A program made the position numbers and the translations under genes. Of a stretch of DNA of 64,000 bases, positions 5,888-60,335 are shown one piece after another. Source of the DNA: Candidatus Obscuribacter phosphatis (lineage in GTDB: Bacteria; Cyanobacteriota; Vampirovibrionia; Obscuribacterales; Obscuribacteraceae); assembly GCA_001899315.1 (NCBI GenBank), contig MOYA01000001.1:1518884-1582883 (forward strand). The letters run 5' to 3'. Under the pieces are notes generated by a model that was not told where the DNA came from, did no database searches, and saw only the letters and a program-made list of their open reading frames with translations. Positions within the stretch are counted from its first letter, which is position 1. Every line of letters begins with the position of its first letter.

Positions 5888-6337
5888 TTAGTAGTTGTCG
5901 TCGTAAGGAACAACAAAACCTTTGCCCTGGAAAATCATGCTATGGCTGCCGCTGTGGGGGCTAGGATAGCCGATGAAGCCATGCTTCATGCCATAACCTG
6001 CACCGTGCAGCAAGCCATAGGTGCTGCCGCCGAGCAGTCCGATAGGACCACCAGTCACAGCTCCAGCTACCATCTCGTAGACACCATCTTCTTTGCCGAG
6101 GTTGCGAGCAACCATCTTGGTTCCACCGATAGCACCTTTGATGCCATCTTGGAAGGCAGCAGTGGGAACGTCCCAAGCAGTAGTCACGGCAGCCGAGACC
6201 ACGCGGCAGGGGAAGTACCACATTTCGTAGATCACGCGAGCGGATTCAGGACGCTCGGGGTACGCCATACTGGGCGCATTAAGACCGACTAGCAGTCCGG
6301 CAGCAGCCAGCAATGACGACAGAAATTTCTTTTGCAT
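5888..6337 (-). CDS. Small secreted glycine-rich paralogue 4
   Basis: A 149-residue exported protein of no family I recognise. The signal peptide is MQKKFLSSLLAAAGLLVGL with likely cleavage after APSMA. The mature part has aromatic/Pro motif YFPCRV, then DGIKGAI, VARNLGKEDGVY, and a glycine-zipper stretch (GGPIGLLGG...YG...G.GMKHG). I chose the ATG at 6337 over the ATG at 6349 because GGTGA lies 5 bases before it. It is the last member of a four-gene tandem array and is closest to the first member (7376-7765), sharing KGAI, LG.EDG.Y and GGP.G..GG. Its C-terminus diverges (GKGFVVPYDDNY) and lacks the GWEKPFS-like ending of the other three. Function unknown; possible membrane-associated or assembling protein. 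Confidence 0.8.
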   Translation of the reverse strand: MQKKFLSSLLAAAGLLVGLNAPSMAYPERPESARVIYEMWYFPCRVVSAAVTTAWDVPTAAFQDGIKGAIGGTKMVARNLGKEDGVYEMVAGAVTGGPIGLLGGSTYGLLHGAGYGMKHGFIGYPSPHSGSHSMIFQGKGFVVPYDDNY

Positions 6338-6377
6338 TATCCTCACCATCTTCCTAAAAGTGATTCGCTAAAATCGA

Positions 6378-6794
6378 TTATTTCTCTTCCATAGTCAGGA
6401 AGGACCAGCGGCTGAAGGGTTTTTCCCAGCCTTTCTTCCAGCCGTGGAAGAAGCCGCGATAAACACCATGAGCGCTACCCAACACCAGACCGGTGGAACC
6501 ACCAATCGGAACAGCAGCCATGCGCTGACCCCAACCCTTTTCGTCGCCGAACTTTTCGGCTACGTGGTTGGTGCCTTTGAGGAACCAATGGTAACCATCA
6601 TCGATCGGACCGCTGACAGCACCGGTGAAAAGAGCACCACTGACAGCACCGACGGTACGAACCGGAGCTTGCAGCACCCAGTTGACCGGTTTGGCTTCGT
6701 AGTCGATAGCTTGAGCTTCCGGAGCTACTGCCGGAAGATAAGCAGCGGCCACGAGAGCCGAAAGAATTAGCTTACCTAGAACTTTTTTAGTCAT
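6378..6794 (-). CDS. Small secreted glycine-rich paralogue 3
   Basis: A 138-residue exported protein. The signal peptide MTKKVLGKLILSALVAAAYL ends near EAQA. The mature protein has the shared cluster motifs: a Pro-Val-Arg segment (APVRTVG), VAEKFGDEKGWGQ, then a glycine-spaced helix pair (IGGSTGLVLGSAHGVYRGFFHG) and the conserved ending GWEKPFSRWSF. The ATG at 6794 is preferred over the GTG at 6803 because GGTGGG precedes it. It is closest to paralogue 2, with VAEKFGDEKG.GQ, GWEKPFS and the terminal EEK in common. It lies 40 bases upstream of paralogue 4. Function unknown. Confidence 0.82.
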   Translation of the reverse strand: MTKKVLGKLILSALVAAAYLPAVAPEAQAIDYEAKPVNWVLQAPVRTVGAVSGALFTGAVSGPIDDGYHWFLKGTNHVAEKFGDEKGWGQRMAAVPIGGSTGLVLGSAHGVYRGFFHGWKKGWEKPFSRWSFLTMEEK

Positions 6795-6833
6795 TTTTCC
6801 CACCGTTTCTAATTTCTAAGACTAAGTTGGGGG

Positions 6834-6863
6834 TGCCCGGCATCACTTGGCATATGCCGGGCA
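6834..6863 (-). other. Intercistronic hairpin between paralogues 2 and 3
   Basis: A perfect 10-bp inverted repeat (TGCCCGGCAT / ATGCCGGGCA) with a 10-base loop sits in the 81-base gap. It has no T-run after it on the minus strand, so it looks more like an mRNA-processing or stability element than a full terminator. Confidence 0.65.
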
Positions 6864-6875
6864 ACTCTTCCTTAA

Positions 6876-7256
6876 TTACTTCTCTTCAGTTACCAGATAA
6901 GATTCTGTGCTGAAGGGCTTTTCCCAGCCAGTGACGAAGCCGTGACGGGCTCCGGTGATGGCACCGTAGGGCATACCCCATACGAAACCAGTCGGAACGC
7001 CGATTACGAAGGCGGCCAAATTCTGACCTAGACCTTTTTCATCACCGAATTTCTCAGCGAGGATACGCTGAGTTTTGTAGGGCATGCGCCAGAGAGAGTT
7101 CACGAGAACACCCTGAGGAGCGTCGAACACACCAGCGGTTACGGAACCGAAGAAGCTAGCAACGCTGCCGAGAGGGCCGTCGGCGGCCATCGAGGGCATT
7201 GCAGCTCCAAGGGTCAGCACCGAGGCTGTCACAAGAGCGAATACTTTGTTTTTCAT
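6876..7256 (-). CDS. Small secreted glycine-rich paralogue 2
   Basis: A 126-residue exported protein. The reading frame extends to 7331, but the ATG at 7256 has AAGGA in front of it and begins a clean signal peptide (MKNKVFALVTASVLTLGAAM, cleavage near PSMA), so I take that start. The mature part has LAEKFGDEKGLGQ, a glycine-rich segment (IGVPTGFVWGMPYGAITG) and the shared ending GWEKPFSTES. It is the second of four tandem paralogues, preceded by a hairpin in the 119-base gap. Function unknown. Confidence 0.82.
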   Translation of the reverse strand: MKNKVFALVTASVLTLGAAMPSMAADGPLGSVASFFGSVTAGVFDAPQGVLVNSLWRMPYKTQRILAEKFGDEKGLGQNLAAFVIGVPTGFVWGMPYGAITGARHGFVTGWEKPFSTESYLVTEEK

Positions 7257-7277
7257 TTCCTTACCACCTGGAGTAGG

Positions 7278-7302
7278 AGGATGGTTCTGAGAGAACCATC
7301 CT
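7278..7302 (-). other. Intercistronic hairpin between paralogues 1 and 2
   Basis: A perfect 11-bp inverted repeat (AGGATGGTTCT / AGAACCATCCT) with a 3-base loop lies in the leader of paralogue 2, about 20 bases before its start. No T-run follows on the minus strand. Confidence 0.7.
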
Positions 7303-7375
7303 CTCAATTCCCAACATTGTTTTAGAAGCACACCATTAGTATCTAATTTAAATACTCAGTTGACCAACGATGAAG

Positions 7376-7765
7376 TTAGTCTTCTTTGAAGGTGAAAGCT
7401 TCTTTGCTGAACGGCTTTTCGAAGCCGGTTTTCATACCGTGCCAGCCGCCGTCGAAGCAGCCATAAGCAGCTCCGCCAACGATACCGAAGGGTCCACCAA
7501 CAAGGGCACCAGTCCACTGTTGATACATACCATCTTCGTTACCGAGCTTGCCGGCTACCCACTTGGTGGACATGATGGCGCCTTTGGTACCATCTTTAAC
7601 CGCACCGAGGGGAACACCAACTACGGTGCCTACACCAGAACCAAGAACTCTGACAGGGAACAGGCAAACTGTTTTGAATGTGTCGTCATCGGCATACGAA
7701 GGAGCGACCATTGTGCCAACCAGAGCCGAGGCTAGTATGAAAGAGGACGCTAACTTTTTAAGCAT
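7376..7765 (-). CDS. Small secreted glycine-rich paralogue 1
   Basis: A 129-residue exported protein and first gene of the array. The ATG at 7765 is preferred over the ATG at 7777 because GGAG lies 6 bases before it. The signal peptide is MLKKLASSFILASALVGTMV with cleavage near PSYA. The mature part has FPVRVLGSGVGTVVG, DGTKGAI, VAGKLGNEDGMY, a glycine zipper (GGPFGIVGGAAYGCFDGG) and the ending GFEKPFSKEAF. It is closest to paralogue 4. A short inverted repeat 34 bases upstream may be its operator. Function unknown. Confidence 0.82.
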   Translation of the reverse strand: MLKKLASSFILASALVGTMVAPSYADDDTFKTVCLFPVRVLGSGVGTVVGVPLGAVKDGTKGAIMSTKWVAGKLGNEDGMYQQWTGALVGGPFGIVGGAAYGCFDGGWHGMKTGFEKPFSKEAFTFKED

Positions 7766-7798
7766 GCAAATCTCCATCTCTTAGCTTTCGTGTTTTGG

Positions 7799-53121: not shown

Positions 53122-55437
53122 TTAAAAATCTTCGCCGCTTCGGCTCTCCAAACCTGGAGGCATGAGCTGCATGTAGGTGCTGTCATATATCGGCTCTGTC
53201 TGAAAGCCAGGAATTTCCGCTTTAAACTTAGCAAGCTCATCTTCTGACCAATGTCGGTCAAGATACAAATGCTTTAGCTTCTTCATCTTTTTGAAAGCCA
53301 TGAGAGATGCAGGAGTAAGCTTGCTCCTTCTAATTCTTAGAGTTTCAAGATTAGGTATCTTAGCAATTTCAGAAAGCTCACCATCAGTAGTATCAGTGGC
53401 GACCAGCCATAACTCATTCAGATTAGAGGACTTCTGCAAGCTTGGATAGAGCGAGGGAGTATCTGCGATTCGCTTCAATTTGAGAATCTTCAACTTAGGC
53501 AAAATCTTTAAACGAGCAACATCGCCACCACTGATTTCTGGACCGCAAAGCCCTAAACCTATCAACCAAGGCATCTTTTCTACTTTAGACAAGACTGTCT
53601 TATCGATGTCGCACTCATCATAACGCTCATGCCGAGGTATGCACTTACTAAGCGGATTAAAGAAAGACAACACCCTCAGCGACTTCCAGGACATGCAGCG
53701 ATTGAGTATGTGTTCATATTTGTTGCTAATGAACTCGAGCCCATACAAATCGCCATCAGCAAAGTAATCAATTAGCTCAGGATAGTCTCTAGTTCCGGCA
53801 TTCAAATAGAACGTAACCGGTTCATCTTTCTTTCTTGCAATAAAGCCATAAGCATGTCTCGGATTGCTGGAGCCAATTTGTATCTCTCCAGCTACAAAAT
53901 CATTTGGGAAGACAAAACCAGGTTGCGGCTTTCTTGTAGCATACCTAAATCCTGGTCTCTTTGACAAAATGAACTTCTGAGTAGCTATATATTGAGCTTG
54001 TTCCAGTGGTTTATAGCGAAACAAATAAAAGCTATCAACTGCCTCAAACTCTTCTTGCGTCGCCCCAGCTGCATCTAATCCCGCACCAGCCTCTACACGC
54101 GGCGACTCCAAAACACTTCTCATTTTATACGGTCGCTCAAAACTCTCTTTGCGTGGATCTTGCTGAAGATCCTTTGCCGCGCTCGCAACCTGCCTGTCCA
54201 CAATCTTCTCAATTTTTGTAGGTTGAGTAGAAAACTTCTGCTGACTCCAGAAAACTGCGCCTGAACCAAAGGCAAGAGAGATTGCTATCAATGCTGGAGC
54301 GAAAATTCGGCTACCAATTCCAGCACTTTCAGGCTCTGAATCTTCAGCATCTTCGTCCGGATCGGATTCAAGCATCTCCTCTTGACGTAATCTCAATTCC
54401 AAAGCAACAGGCTTGCCACCAAGCACTCTCTCAAAATCATGAAGCAAAGCCTTAGTATCTCTATAGCGATTCTCTGGATTCTTGGCTAGCATTTTCCTCA
54501 AGCAGTCTTCCAGTGGACCAGGAAAATCCCCCTGAGGATTGACGGAAGTGAGAGTCGGCGGTTCCATGTTTAGATGCATATAGAAAGTTTGAAACGGATT
54601 GCCACCCCTGAAGGGTGGACGACCGGTCAAGGTTTCAAACAAAGAACAACCGAGTGAGTAGATGTCGGATCTTCCATCAACAGTGGTGCCTTCGCATTGT
54701 TCTGGGCTCATATAGAAAGGCGTGCCAAAAATGCTGCCTGTTGCAGTGTGGCTCTGAGAGCCAATATTCAATCTAGCGATACCAAAATCTACCAATCGGG
54801 TCTGCAATTCGCCATACTTTTCCCCGGCGATAAGCATTATATTTGAAGGCTTGACGTCTCTATGAACAATGCCGCGTTCGTGGGCAACTCCCAGAGCTTC
54901 TGCCACCTCTGAGAAAATGCCTATAGCCTGCTCGAAATGCAAAGGACCATTGTTCTTGATATGAGCCGAAAGAGTCTCACCATCAAGCAAATCCATGACA
55001 TAGTAAATGCATCGACCACGGTCTACACCCATATTGTGGACGCTGACAATGGCTCTATGTCTAAGTCGCGCCAGCACCATCGCCTCAGCCTTAAATCGAG
55101 CCAGAACAATTTCGTCAACTTCCGCCTTGTTTATTAGTTTTAGCGCATAAAGCTTACCCAGTAATTTATGTCGGGCAGCAAAAACCACACCCATGCCGCC
55201 GCGCCCCAAAACAGAGACAAGCTCATATACGCCATCTACGACATCGCCAACTTTGTACTGCTGACTAAAAACCGACGCTGTTGAGACGAAACCCGGGCTA
55301 TGAATTGGACCGGTAGGCTCAGAAGGAAAACCGTAAGGAGAAAGCGATGATTCTGAATCTTCCTGTGCTGAGATACGGTCGCACTCAGAAAAGCCTGACC
55401 CACCAGTACCACCAACATTCGAAGAACTAGGACTCAA
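53122..55437 (-). CDS. Receptor-type Ser/Thr kinase with LRR-like C-terminal domain (kinase B)
   Basis: A 771-residue Hanks-type kinase. A Ser/Gly-rich N-terminal 65 residues precede the kinase domain (about 70-345): GRGGMGVVFAARH, YALKLI, HRDVKPSNIM, DFGIAR, SPEQCEG, SDIYSLGCSLFE. An acidic linker leads to one membrane helix (IFAPALIAISLAFGSGAVFW). The external part has a domain with FFNPLSKCI and YDECD, then leucine-rich repeats (LKILKLKRI, LNELWLVAT, LETLRIRRSKLTPASL, LKHLYLDRHW). The C-terminal half is clearly paralogous to kinase A just upstream. The start is TTG with only AAGAA upstream. It is third gene of the RelA/SpoT-like operon. Confidence 0.9.
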   Translation of the reverse strand: MSPSSSNVGGTGGSGFSECDRISAQEDSESSLSPYGFPSEPTGPIHSPGFVSTASVFSQQYKVGDVVDGVYELVSVLGRGGMGVVFAARHKLLGKLYALKLINKAEVDEIVLARFKAEAMVLARLRHRAIVSVHNMGVDRGRCIYYVMDLLDGETLSAHIKNNGPLHFEQAIGIFSEVAEALGVAHERGIVHRDVKPSNIMLIAGEKYGELQTRLVDFGIARLNIGSQSHTATGSIFGTPFYMSPEQCEGTTVDGRSDIYSLGCSLFETLTGRPPFRGGNPFQTFYMHLNMEPPTLTSVNPQGDFPGPLEDCLRKMLAKNPENRYRDTKALLHDFERVLGGKPVALELRLRQEEMLESDPDEDAEDSEPESAGIGSRIFAPALIAISLAFGSGAVFWSQQKFSTQPTKIEKIVDRQVASAAKDLQQDPRKESFERPYKMRSVLESPRVEAGAGLDAAGATQEEFEAVDSFYLFRYKPLEQAQYIATQKFILSKRPGFRYATRKPQPGFVFPNDFVAGEIQIGSSNPRHAYGFIARKKDEPVTFYLNAGTRDYPELIDYFADGDLYGLEFISNKYEHILNRCMSWKSLRVLSFFNPLSKCIPRHERYDECDIDKTVLSKVEKMPWLIGLGLCGPEISGGDVARLKILPKLKILKLKRIADTPSLYPSLQKSSNLNELWLVATDTTDGELSEIAKIPNLETLRIRRSKLTPASLMAFKKMKKLKHLYLDRHWSEDELAKFKAEIPGFQTEPIYDSTYMQLMPPGLESRSGEDF

Positions 55438-55509
55438 TTCTTTTCTTCAGTCTACATTAAGCAAGGGGAATAGAATGATATCCATTGCCTACTCAATTTT
55501 CAACCTGGA

Positions 55510-57894
55510 CTAATTTGCCGCTGCAGGGAACAAAGAACGTCCCGGAAACATCTCCCAGTAGGTAAAATCTACCATTGGTTCATAATGGCAATCAGGAATC
55601 TTGCTCTTGAGTCTCTGGAATTCTCTTGCTGTGCCTTTATTGATCCATTTTGTATCCAAATAGAGAGTCTTCAAGTTAGACATTCGACAGAAAGCATCAA
55701 CGCTGGCAGGAGTAAGAAATGACCTTCGAATGCGCAGCCGTTCAAGATTCTTCAACGCTGATAGAGCCTCAAGATCTTTATCCCTCAATCCGCAATCAAT
55801 AATCCAGAGTTCCTTTATGTTGGGATAGCGCTTGAGTAAGAGCAAAACTTTATCTATGTCTGTAGATCTCTTCAACTTGAGCGTATGGAGCCTCCTAATG
55901 AGCTTCATTGACGCTAAGTGTTCTGCTTTGAGGTGCACTGCGGGCAGTCCCAAGGATACTAATGAACCTAACTTATCAATCTCTCGCAGATCCTCTGGTT
56001 TCACAGTGCATTCTTCATACTTATTTAGGTTAATGATGCACTTTGTCAGCGAGTTGAAGAAACACACTTCCTTTAGGTTCGGAATTCTCTCAAGGTTTTT
56101 CAGGGTAGAATTTAGATCCTTAAAGAAAAACTCTATGTTCCTTACTCTTATTCCCTGCTGACAAAGAATAGGCAAAAATCGAAGCAACTCAGGATAGTCC
56201 TGAGTCTGATATCCAAAGAAAATCGAGATCTCACTATCCTTGCTAACCGTTAGCTTGTCAGCGACCATTCTGGGTTCTTCAGCGCCTCTAGAAACAGCAC
56301 ATAAATAAATATCTTTTGGAAAGTGCATTTCTAGATCGTCGCCATCTTTCACAAAAGATATTGGAGGCGAGGAATTGTTGGAAATAAAAGCCTCGTAGCG
56401 CTCTTTGTACTTGTCATGATATTGTTCCTGCAGATCCTCCCAATTGAGATTCATTAGCCGATTAAGCTCGTCTTGGGTTGCGCCAACGGCGACAAGATTA
56501 GACTTTCTAATGACACCATCAGCAAAACCCTTAATGAGATCATTGTCAATAAAATGATTCGCTTTTGTACTCTTTGGTTCATTAACGATAGTCTTCCCAT
56601 TAACATCTGGAAGGCTACTCGATTCAGACTGCACAGAGTCATCGTAAGAGGAATCGAAAGCAGCAAATTTCTTTTCCTCAGGCAACTTTTTCTCAGTCCT
56701 GAGTACAGTCACGAATCCGATTCCACCCAAAATCATAATTACCGCTATCAACCCGATAATGGCATTACGCAAAACGATATTAGCGGAGGCAAATGGCGAA
56801 CCCAATTCATCTTCGAAGGAATCTCTAGTTGCTTCACCAGCTCTTGAATTAACACCGTCTTTAGTACTAGCCTGTCGCGAAAAGCTGCGATTTTTGGGAT
56901 GCTCGATACTAGTGGAAACTCTATTTCCGCCTGTCCTACCGGCTCGATAATTTTGTACAGGCTGTCCTGCCAGAATACGCTCAAGGTCATGAGCAACCTC
57001 TTCCATATTCTGATATCTTTCACTCTGACCTTTAGCAAGTATTTTTTCCATAAATATTTGCAGCGCATCGACAGTAATTGATTCGCCTAGAAACTCGCAC
57101 AAGTCGGGAACAGGCGCGGATTGATGCATTTCAAAAGTCTGAAAGGCATTATCACCTACAAATGGAGGTCGACCAGTCAAGGTCTCAAATATGGTGCAGC
57201 CCAGCGAGTAAATGTCAGCTCTTTGATCTAATTTCTTTCCTTCAATTTGTTCGGGGCTCATATAGAAAGGCGTGCCAAACACCAAACCAGTGGCAGTCAT
57301 AGCCTGTGAACGTCCGGTTGAATCAACTAACCTGGCAAGACCGAAGTCCGTCAGCTTTAGTTGGCTTACTCTGCCATAATCAGATTCGATAGCCATCAAA
57401 TTTGATGGCTTGATGTCTCGATGGACAACACCTTTGCGGTGAGCGGCACTTAGTGCCGATGTAAGCTCAAGAAACAATGGCAATGCAATCTGAGGGCTAA
57501 GTGGACCATCTCTTTTGAGAACCTGATCAAGACCTCGACCTTTAAGCAAGTCCATAACAAAATAAGGACAAACGCCGGCATCAACGCCCATATTATGAAT
57601 GCCGACTATACCTGGATGATTCAGCCTAGCCAAGGCTCTAGCTTCTTGCTCGAAACGAGTCCATGTCTCAGCATTCAAATTCTTACCAGAGATGATCTTG
57701 AGGGCATACTCACGGTTCAAAACCAAGTGTCGGCATGAGAATACTACTCCCATACCACCTCGACCAAGAAACTTGAGCAGCAAATAAGTGTTGTCGACTT
57801 TATCGCCCGGCAAATAGTTCTTGATTGAACCGGATGAGGTGACTATGTGAAAGCCTCTTGTCCCAGCTTGATCTTCAGGTCTAGGCTCATCCAT
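55510..57894 (-). CDS. Receptor-type Ser/Thr kinase with LRR-like C-terminal domain (kinase A)
   Basis: A 794-residue Hanks-type kinase: GRGGMGVVFSCRH, YALKII, HRDIKPSNLM, DFGLARL, SPEQIEGKK, SDIYSLGC-like (ADIYSLGCTIFE). A basic Ser-rich linker is followed by one membrane helix (IIGLIAVIMILGGIGFVTVL) and an extracytoplasmic domain with FFNSLTKCI, YEECT and LRR-like segments (LHTLKLKRSTD, IKELWIIDCGL, LERLRIRRSFLTPASV, LKTLYLDTKW). All active-site residues are present. ATG 57894 with GAGAAG upstream is preferred; TTG 57909 would overlap the RelA/SpoT-like stop by 4 bases. Tandem duplicate of kinase B. Confidence 0.9.
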   Translation of the reverse strand: MDEPRPEDQAGTRGFHIVTSSGSIKNYLPGDKVDNTYLLLKFLGRGGMGVVFSCRHLVLNREYALKIISGKNLNAETWTRFEQEARALARLNHPGIVGIHNMGVDAGVCPYFVMDLLKGRGLDQVLKRDGPLSPQIALPLFLELTSALSAAHRKGVVHRDIKPSNLMAIESDYGRVSQLKLTDFGLARLVDSTGRSQAMTATGLVFGTPFYMSPEQIEGKKLDQRADIYSLGCTIFETLTGRPPFVGDNAFQTFEMHQSAPVPDLCEFLGESITVDALQIFMEKILAKGQSERYQNMEEVAHDLERILAGQPVQNYRAGRTGGNRVSTSIEHPKNRSFSRQASTKDGVNSRAGEATRDSFEDELGSPFASANIVLRNAIIGLIAVIMILGGIGFVTVLRTEKKLPEEKKFAAFDSSYDDSVQSESSSLPDVNGKTIVNEPKSTKANHFIDNDLIKGFADGVIRKSNLVAVGATQDELNRLMNLNWEDLQEQYHDKYKERYEAFISNNSSPPISFVKDGDDLEMHFPKDIYLCAVSRGAEEPRMVADKLTVSKDSEISIFFGYQTQDYPELLRFLPILCQQGIRVRNIEFFFKDLNSTLKNLERIPNLKEVCFFNSLTKCIINLNKYEECTVKPEDLREIDKLGSLVSLGLPAVHLKAEHLASMKLIRRLHTLKLKRSTDIDKVLLLLKRYPNIKELWIIDCGLRDKDLEALSALKNLERLRIRRSFLTPASVDAFCRMSNLKTLYLDTKWINKGTAREFQRLKSKIPDCHYEPMVDFTYWEMFPGRSLFPAAAN

Positions 57895-57905
57895 AAAATA
57901 GCTTC

Positions 57906-59033
57906 TCAATCACTCTGAATGATCTGAACGTTTGCTAAATCGCATTCGAAAGATGTCTCTTCAGCTAGAAAAAGCATGCGCAAGAGATCTCTATAGAATC
58001 CATAAAGTGGGATTCTCTCTGCTAATTCCGCTCTCATGGCGTCGCGCCGCCTCTTAAAAGATCGATGAGAGGGGCCAGCCATATGGTCAATTTCAAGATA
58101 ATAATTGCTTAGCGGCTGCACCTGAATCTCGAAGAGTCTCTCATTCCAAAGAACAACACTCTTAAGGGCTCGCCACCCCGTCTGTTTCATAACTTCGGGA
58201 GCGCAGTTGAGATAGTCTTTGGTTTCAATAAAGTGCAAAGCTTGAGGTTCGTATTCTGATTCGGTGTCGATATCTACAGCTTCATCACTGAGCTTGTATA
58301 ACTCGAGTCTCTCTCGATTGAGGCGACTTGCAGTAAGTGCTTCCAATTCATCGTGCACTTCCATGCATGCTTGATCATCTTCGCAGACTATCTTGATGCC
58401 GAAGATGTCTTTGACATACTTACTGAACTGCTTGAAGTGCTTGTCTCTGGAGACAAGCTCACCTACGCCAAACAGTTCATCCGTCACTTTATTCCAAAGC
58501 TCTTCCTCAGCCTTAACCCTGCTAGTAAGACGATTTACCTTAGACAATCTATGTTCTAGCGGAATATACTCTACGAAGTTAGCAGATAGTTCTAAAGGCA
58601 CCCAGCCATCTTTGCTGCGATATCTGAAGCGATCAAGCATATGTTCACCGAGGTCGATATCAGTGACACTAAGCAAAGTGTCCCTATCGATTTTCTCTCT
58701 GATCAGAAATGGACGCTCACTAACGCCAGGAAGCGTACCGATAACATTGCTATGCAGCTCGAACTCTCCCAAGAGCATCGACGCCAATAGATGGGCAAGA
58801 GTATGAAGGTTTCTCTCGCCTTCCAAAATGCTCTGACGAAAGGCCTCACGCACAGATAGAAGCAGACTTCTGCTTATCTTGATTTCAACCTTTGCGGTGC
58901 CTTCCTCCATCTCCTGTTTTTTAGAAGAGAGATAATGCATAAACTGGTGAAGGACCGGTTCATGTATTGCCATTTCTAAAGGAGATCCAACCGGCTGCAC
59001 TCTTTCCCGCCCCTCTAATTTAGAATATTTCAA
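57906..59033 (-). CDS. Divergent RelA/SpoT-like nucleotidyltransferase-domain protein
   Basis: A 375-residue soluble protein. Residues about 170-325 follow the RelA/SpoT synthetase pattern: SRVKAEEELWNKV (R172, K174, K182), VKDIFGIKIV with D209, TKDYLNCAPEVMKQTGWRAL (K272-D273-Y274, P279, G286) and FEIQVQPLSNYYLEIDHMAG with E302 and Q304. Differences from synthetases include GWRALK for GYQSLH and EIQVQ for EIQIR. There is no HD hydrolase, TGS or ACT domain. The N-terminal 165 residues are unknown. Starts TTG 59033, GTG 59000 (GAGGGG upstream) and ATG 58973 are possible. It is the first gene of an operon with two receptor kinases. Activity is not certain: it may make an alarmone, modify RNA or be a binding protein. 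Confidence 0.6.
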   Translation of the reverse strand: MKYSKLEGRERVQPVGSPLEMAIHEPVLHQFMHYLSSKKQEMEEGTAKVEIKISRSLLLSVREAFRQSILEGERNLHTLAHLLASMLLGEFELHSNVIGTLPGVSERPFLIREKIDRDTLLSVTDIDLGEHMLDRFRYRSKDGWVPLELSANFVEYIPLEHRLSKVNRLTSRVKAEEELWNKVTDELFGVGELVSRDKHFKQFSKYVKDIFGIKIVCEDDQACMEVHDELEALTASRLNRERLELYKLSDEAVDIDTESEYEPQALHFIETKDYLNCAPEVMKQTGWRALKSVVLWNERLFEIQVQPLSNYYLEIDHMAGPSHRSFKRRRDAMRAELAERIPLYGFYRDLLRMLFLAEETSFECDLANVQIIQSD

Positions 59034-59069: not shown

Positions 59070-60335
59070 ATGAAAGTTCATCTTCACAAGTTGCGTACGA
59101 GAATTAGCTACCTTTTGCTCTCAGCGATAGTTTCATTGTCGCAAATCTCTTCCGCACTTGCTGAAAGTGCCGTGACCGACCCCGCTAGTCGCACTCCTGA
59201 ACAGAATGAATCTATAAAGCTGAAAAGCGAAATTTGGTCAAAGCGGAGAATGGAGGCAGAAAAACTCCTTAGTCAAGGACGCAGGGAAGACGCTGCCAAA
59301 ATTGTCGAAGAGACCTTGAACGAAAGAAGGATTCTGGGGCTTGACCTGCTCTCAGAACTTGATTTTCTCGGCGACCTATATGCAAAAGGTGGTAATTCGG
59401 AAAAGTGCCTGCATTACTATGAAGAGATGCTCTCCCAGCGACAGAAACAATGTGAAGTCGAGGAAGATTCAACCCTCATCTATCCATTGGAAAAGTATGC
59501 TGGCGCTCTTGAGAAATTCGGGAAGAGAGATAAAGCGGGGCAGCTGAGAAAGCGAGTAGCGACCATTCAAAGACTGCAAAAGACGAAGCCGTCCTTTGTT
59601 GCGCCTGAAAAGCTTAGTGAACAAACTAGGCTCAAAGAGGCAGAGAGATGCAGAGTTTACGGAGCAAATCTTATCAAGGCCGATCTCTATGAGCGGGCAC
59701 AGATTTATCTAGAAAATTCTCTCAAACTAAACAAGAATGATGCGCAGACCTATCTGCTATTGGCTCAGGTTTACTGCTGGCAAGATAAATTCGTCAAAGC
59801 CAAAGGTCTATTGGATACTGCAATAAAGCTAAATCCCAGCTTTAGCCAAGCCTATCGAGACCGGGGTTATATTTGGCAGAATCAAAAGCAGTACAGTAAG
59901 GCAATCGAAGACTTTGAGAAAGCTCATATTTTGAACAAAGAAGACCTAGACTCACTTGGCGCTAAAGCTAAACTGCTGGACAATACGGGGAAGCACGCAG
60001 ACGCTATAAAGACCTACTCTCAGATAATCACTGAGAATGAGGCTCTCTACTGGCCCTATATACAAAGAGCAGTGGCTTACACTAATCTGAAAGACTATGA
60101 AAAGGCTATTGCAGACTATACAGTTTTGGTGAAAAGAGCACCGTCAGACAGCGATTATCGTGAGTTCAGGGCTGAAACAGAGGTAAAAGCAGGGAAATTG
60201 GCGGAAGCGCTGAGAGACTATAAGGAATTGGTGCACCTAAAGCCGGGAAACACCTATTTCAAACAAAAGCTGATTGAGGTGGAACAAAAGATAAAGACTA
60301 CTAAAGAAGACTCTAGTTCGTCACTAAGGAATTGA
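59070..60335 (+). CDS. Exported TPR protein
   Basis: A 421-residue protein with a signal peptide (ISYLLLSAIVSLSQISSALA). An N-terminal helical region (about 45-170) resembles Kinesin-light-chain-type TPRs (LDFLGDLYAKGGNSEKCLHY). From about 195 there are five or six canonical TPRs (AQTYLLLAQVYCWQDKFVKA, QAYRDRGYIWQNQKQYSKA, ALYWPYIQRAVAYTNLKDYE). The C-terminus is Ser-rich. It is divergent from the RelA/SpoT-like operon with only 36-96 bases between starts, and it overlaps the next minus-strand gene by 12 bases tail to tail. Probably a periplasmic scaffold. Confidence 0.8.
   Translation: MKVHLHKLRTRISYLLLSAIVSLSQISSALAESAVTDPASRTPEQNESIKLKSEIWSKRRMEAEKLLSQGRREDAAKIVEETLNERRILGLDLLSELDFLGDLYAKGGNSEKCLHYYEEMLSQRQKQCEVEEDSTLIYPLEKYAGALEKFGKRDKAGQLRKRVATIQRLQKTKPSFVAPEKLSEQTRLKEAERCRVYGANLIKADLYERAQIYLENSLKLNKNDAQTYLLLAQVYCWQDKFVKAKGLLDTAIKLNPSFSQAYRDRGYIWQNQKQYSKAIEDFEKAHILNKEDLDSLGAKAKLLDNTGKHADAIKTYSQIITENEALYWPYIQRAVAYTNLKDYEKAIADYTVLVKRAPSDSDYREFRAETEVKAGKLAEALRDYKELVHLKPGNTYFKQKLIEVEQKIKTTKEDSSSSLRN

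Follow-up and report, generated by a model that had tools for sequence, protein, structure and literature searches.

Why should a gene for a RelA/SpoT-like protein lie directly upstream of two genes for receptor kinases? The three genes stand together in the genome of Candidatus Obscuribacter phosphatis, and the initial annotation read them as one signalling unit with a possible role in defence. It knew of no described system that encodes an alarmone synthetase and Hanks kinases as one unit. Members of the RSH superfamily already make ppGpp, make ppApp, or modify tRNA. A search of open-licence papers found no account of either this three-gene grouping or the family to which its first gene belongs.

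The window (the whole stretch of DNA analysed, 64 kb) was checked for open reading frames, and three were found on the minus strand between 59033 and 53122, with the coordinates and spacing first assigned to them. The features are these:

59070..60335, plus strand: gene for a TPR-repeat protein, divergent from gene 1 and syntenic within the genus
57906..59033, minus strand: gene 1, the RelA/SpoT-like protein, 375 aa as listed (open reading frame, Pfam, alignment, AlphaFold model)
55510..57909, minus strand: kinase 1, membrane Ser/Thr (Hanks-type) kinase, 799 aa; kinase domain 44-307, transmembrane segment 384-402, outer LRR domain about 460-790
55438..55509, minus strand: gap of 72 bases between kinase 1 and kinase 2, with a sigma-70-like match at 55503-55475 (10/12)
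53122..55437, minus strand: kinase 2, membrane Ser/Thr (Hanks-type) kinase, 771 aa; kinase domain 71-335, transmembrane segment 378-396, outer LRR domain about 460-750

Start codons affect the junctions. The true start of gene 1 is likely the GTG at 59000 (364 aa), because the alignment with most homologues begins only near residue 12. Read from the TTG at 57909, kinase 1 shares 4 bases with gene 1; read from the next in-frame ATG (57894), it is separated from gene 1 by 11 bases. Kinase 2 follows 72 bases on. Because the spacing is so tight, co-transcription of all three genes is plausible. Promoter scans, also of the gap between the kinases, returned sigma-70-like matches no more often than chance would give; kinase 2 may or may not have a promoter of its own. 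Elsewhere in the window, four tandem small open reading frames on the minus strand (5888-7777: 5888-6349, 6378-6803, 6876-7331, and 7376-7777) cluster together in BLAST comparisons and look like a gene family that has expanded locally. The host genome is 5.49 Mb, and its named close relatives are Candidatus Obscuribacterales and Melainabacteria metagenome-assembled genomes (MAGs).

What is the gene 1 product? Alone, it matches Pfam RelA_SpoT (PF04607) just below the cut-off of 27 bits (25.1 bits, E 2.3e-5); in a genome search that included neighbouring residues of the frame, the score rose to 28.1 bits. All 30 of the aligned family members match PF04607 (best E 1.8e-6). The AlphaFold model (pLDDT 81.6, pTM 0.80) gives a clearer picture: its top Foldseek matches are RelP, RelQ, and other RSH synthetases (probability 1.00), and it matches RelQ (5ded) with Z 11.4 over 148 residues at rmsd 3.8. 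The synthetase fold is thus present in the predicted structure, and the description of this protein as a divergent relative of RelA and SpoT holds. Iojap/RsfS and nucleotidyltransferase entries also appear among the structural matches, with middling Z. The sequence profile found no relative in the PDB, where relatives emerge by fold alone, and among curated family models, NCBIfam included, Pfam RelA_SpoT was the only one found to match. (A Clp_N-like amino terminus, suspected by eye, had no Pfam match and was dropped.) The best reading is that gene 1 belongs to an uncharacterised RSH-like family of about 360 aa.

The predicted layout comprises a long helix (55-88), a beta-rich region (about 90-160), the SYNTH core (about 166-329), and carboxyl-terminal helices. 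The structural alignment begins in helix 55-88, and the conserved RxK strand lies at 166-173; from this, the family is predicted to carry an insertion of about 70 residues, rich in beta structure, between the two.

Residues of the active site can be located by matching spacing to FaRel2, whose contacts are R64, K66, S70, K74, R77, the catalytic D90, G93, R95, the acceptor Y128, E145, and Q147 (PMC11782079). Within each motif, gene 1 offers FaRel2-like spacing for R172, K174, E178, K182, and D185; D209, G212, and K214; and W287, E302, and Q304. Six of these have like counterparts: D209, E302, R172, K174, K182, and Q304 correspond to D90, E145, R64, K66, K74, and Q147. The distance from W287 to E302 is 15 residues, versus 17 from Y128 to E145. 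All of the mapped residues are invariant in the alignment of 30 sequences. So too are K272 and Y274 of the KDY motif, which long Rel proteins have and which is present as FKDY in the Rel of this genome. The differences are equally fixed. The G-loop tyrosine and the YxSxH-type acceptor motif are missing, and invariant W287 and K291 stand instead (Tyr to Trp, His to Lys); the basic helix that binds the triphosphate has acidic residues at two places (E178 and D185); and K214 replaces an arginine (R95). By this mapping, the family retains the donor and metal residues, and its acceptor and triphosphate-helix positions are changed in a fixed manner.

Such a pattern admits two readings. Gene 1 may be an enzyme of altered specificity, or it may have the RSH fold but no catalysis, binding a nucleotide or (p)ppGpp and serving as a sensor or scaffold. 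The fixed acidic residues of the triphosphate-binding helix, together with lysine for arginine at 214 and for histidine at 291, speak for a dead protein, and with E178 and D185 invariant the protein could lack ATP binding. However, the catalytic residues D209 and E302, and the donor-site residues R172, K174, K182, and Q304, are kept across phyla, a conservation that one would not usually expect of a pseudoenzyme. To judge from these residues, an enzyme of altered specificity is more likely than a nucleotide-binding pseudoenzyme, which we regard as possible but unlikely.

Among 117 sampled genomes, the host's own included, gene 1 was found in 33; all 33 lie in the family of the window, Obscuribacterales, from which 50 genomes were sampled. 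A profile run against 289 genomes of the class recovered the same 33 carriers. Relatives outside the family, at 36-43% identity, occur in Myxococcota, in other "deltaproteobacterial" MAGs, and in one Thermoanaerobaculia MAG. Carriers have larger genomes (median 6.3 versus 4.2 Mb; one-sided Mann-Whitney p 1.4e-6, uncorrected for relatedness or completeness). Apparently, inheritance of the gene has been mostly vertical; within its own family, it is found in members with large genomes. Selection on it is strong: more than 60 alignment columns are invariant in 30 diverse members, and the copies in the window and in the close relative L031, 98% identical, differ with dN/dS of about 0.012 (0.0102/0.829). 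For the same pair of genomes, dN/dS is 0.05-0.06 in the kinase domains and 0.06-0.46 in the outer and linker parts of the kinases. Canonical Rel is encoded separately in the host genome (C1:1139113); a RelA_SpoT match, nearly always to a long Rel, is present in 58 of 60 sampled genomes.

These data bear on whether gene 1 is a toxin of the toxSAS type. The fold is shared, and CapRel is among the structural matches (Z 8.4). Also, the amino-terminal region or the insertion may be a fused inhibitory part. Nevertheless, no recurrent small antitoxin-like partner was found across 40 neighbourhoods; plasmid and phage collections held no relatives of gene 1; PADLOC gave it no match better than E 0.02; and the gene is under strong purifying selection and widespread in a bacterial family, which also speaks against a toxin. 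We judge this identity very unlikely. Absence from the plasmid and phage collections leaves a mobile defence or toxin-antitoxin role unsupported, and a mobile origin was dropped for the same reason. The kinases do have PADLOC matches (PD-T4-6 and MAD6), which reflect the shared kinase domain. The defence role suggested at first therefore finds no backing in these collections, in PADLOC, or in the conservation of the gene.

The two kinases are what they seemed to be: membrane Ser/Thr kinases with paralogous, LRR-like outer domains. Both match Pkinase (E<1e-46), with the glycine loop, catalytic lysine, HRD, and DFG intact, and each has one strong hydrophobic segment (384-402 in kinase 1, 378-396 in kinase 2). 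Their outer domains are 31% identical (E 3.5e-39) and are LRR solenoids, as judged from weak Pfam LRR matches in seven of seven members, beta-alpha repeats in the model, and LRR proteins as top Foldseek matches. Such kinases abound here. The host genome encodes 94 Ser/Thr kinase domains in 5.5 Mb, many in tandem pairs: 13 adjacent pairs were observed, versus a mean of 5.6 by random placement (with approximate contig sizes). The outer domain of kinase 1 recurs, at 52% identity, on an unlinked kinase (C1:2622834-2625059).

Between the window and L031, the kinase domains are mostly 80-100% identical. Residues 401-560 of kinase 1 are only about 30-40% identical, even though the adjacent gene 1 is 98% identical; the sensor thus appears, from this comparison, to change quickly while gene 1 stays constant. 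The pattern points to replacement of the sensor, to recombination with a paralogue, or to very rapid change in the outer and linker parts. (Across the wider interval 401-650, window 55510-57909 against L031:9125-11536, identity is about 30-55%, and the kinase domain and carboxyl-terminal end are about 75-100% identical.)

Do the kinases belong to gene 1? Receptor kinases adjoin it in only three sampled species, all of one genus: that of the window, L031, and L032, in which gene 1 is 98% and 71% identical, respectively, to the window copy. Flanking genes, including those for Nudix and TPR proteins, are also conserved in the three. The order of the kinases is no better conserved than these flanking genes, and so belongs to the general synteny of the genus. 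L032 also has a gene for a 259-aa protein with no Pfam match (L032:11425-12204) inserted between the two kinases.

Outside the genus, gene 1 stands alone or beside unrelated genes; its neighbours vary and are often on the opposite strand, as they are on both sides in L035, L050, L057, L070, and L072. Other kinases do occur nearby: in L050 a kinase with a PAS domain, encoded on the opposite strand, and in L057 another kinase. The carrier genome G289 (L060) has no kinase 1 match at E<=1e-70, and five first-look candidates.

Other recurrent neighbours were considered as partners. In one clade (L038, L039, L042, and L052), an ABC-F ATPase gene lies directly upstream of gene 1 (gap -4 to 44 bases), and in another (L043, L044, L047, L049, and L053) a different ABC-F type lies nearby. 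The first type is present in 38 of 50 genomes of the family, some without gene 1, and is adjacent in only two genera; it is therefore a weak lead as a dedicated partner, although a link between gene 1 and the ribosome is possible. The iron-sulphur assembly genes sufB-sufC-sufD lie downstream in six loci of deltaproteobacterial type (L060, L061, L062, L065, L066, and L067), and this association is limited to one clade.

The case for an operon specific to the genus can now be weighed. The LRR kinases would sense an outside signal, phosphorylate the RelA/SpoT-like enzyme, and thereby tune a nucleotide messenger. The same-strand spacing is indeed tight (-4, then about 72 bases, in the window and L031; 70 bases to the first kinase in L032), the kinases have intact catalytic motifs, a transmembrane segment, and an LRR domain, and the arrangement persists in a species with a gene 1 only 71% identical. 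But the arrangement is absent from the other neighbourhoods of the family, the synteny of the genus reaches the flanking genes too, an extra gene separates the kinases in L032, the kinase 1 sensor differs greatly beside a nearly unchanged gene 1, and 94 kinase domains populate the genome. We consider this arrangement decidedly unlikely to be a functional circuit. In sum, the sequence observations and the guess at a fold made in the initial annotation stand; a system-level reading is not supported beyond one genus. The three genes are grouped only locally, in a single bacterial genus.

Our preferred reading, to which we assign a probability of about 0.6, is that two probably unrelated things are joined here: a family of RSH-like transferases with altered specificity, and ordinary kinases placed downstream. 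Most likely, the gene 1 product is a transferase of pyrophosphate or nucleotidyl groups that works on its own. The retained R-x-K...K, D..G.K, and E.Q residues would hold ATP or a different donor, and the acceptor would stack on Trp287 in place of the usual tyrosine. It therefore probably has a specificity other than that for ppGpp synthesis, a reaction that can be left to the separate canonical Rel. As for the two LRR receptor kinases, they would be unremarkable representatives of the very large kinase repertoire of this genome, placed downstream of gene 1 in the ancestor of the genus; they may share its transcript. Some observations count against this reading: the same strand and close spacing in all three species, one with gene 1 at 71% identity, would also fit selection for co-expression; the invariant acidic residues E178 and D185 could mean that ATP is not bound; and profile-profile comparison of gene 1 with canonical Rel gives a weak match (probability 14%).

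A bolder combination is conceivable. The family would perform new chemistry in several phyla, with an acceptor that is none of GTP/GDP, ATP, and tRNA; in this genus, the two LRR receptor kinases would control it directly, and a sensor outside the cell would feed a new nucleotide signal. We think this very unlikely. Whatever the role of the kinases, attention belongs to the uncharacterised family of RSH-like proteins, not to the three-gene grouping. If the invariant changes at the acceptor site signify a new substrate, then the family would add a pyrophosphate or nucleotidyl transferase to the RSH superfamily. Moreover, the survey of neighbourhoods illustrates that, where a genome is rich in kinases, finding one next to a gene says little about that gene's function.

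Gene 1 can be compared with known systems. With the small alarmone synthetases RelQ and RelP (SAS; PDB 5ded, 6ewz) it shares the SYNTH fold (Z 9.6-11.4) and the donor-site arginine and lysines and catalytic aspartate and glutamate, alike in order and spacing. It differs in its length of about 360 aa, the predicted beta-rich insertion (about 90-160) before the core, tryptophan for the acceptor-stacking tyrosine, acidic residues in the donor helix, and lack of an NCBIfam match. With long RSH proteins, such as the Rel at C1:1139113, it shares RxK...K, D..[GA].[RK], KDY, the G-loop, and EIQ in the same order; however, HD, TGS, and ACT regions were not found, and the G-loop reads GW.A.KS rather than SYQSLHT. 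With toxSAS and CapRel tRNA pyrophosphokinases (PMC11782079, PMC9712102) it shares the fold and the catalytic aspartate and glutamate, but neither the antitoxin partner nor the mobile context was found. Finally, the two kinases resemble Hanks-type transmembrane Ser/Thr kinases of the PknB type in their kinase domain, single transmembrane segment, and outer sensor domain; they differ in that the outer domain is LRR, not PASTA, and in that each stands among dozens of paralogues in the genome.
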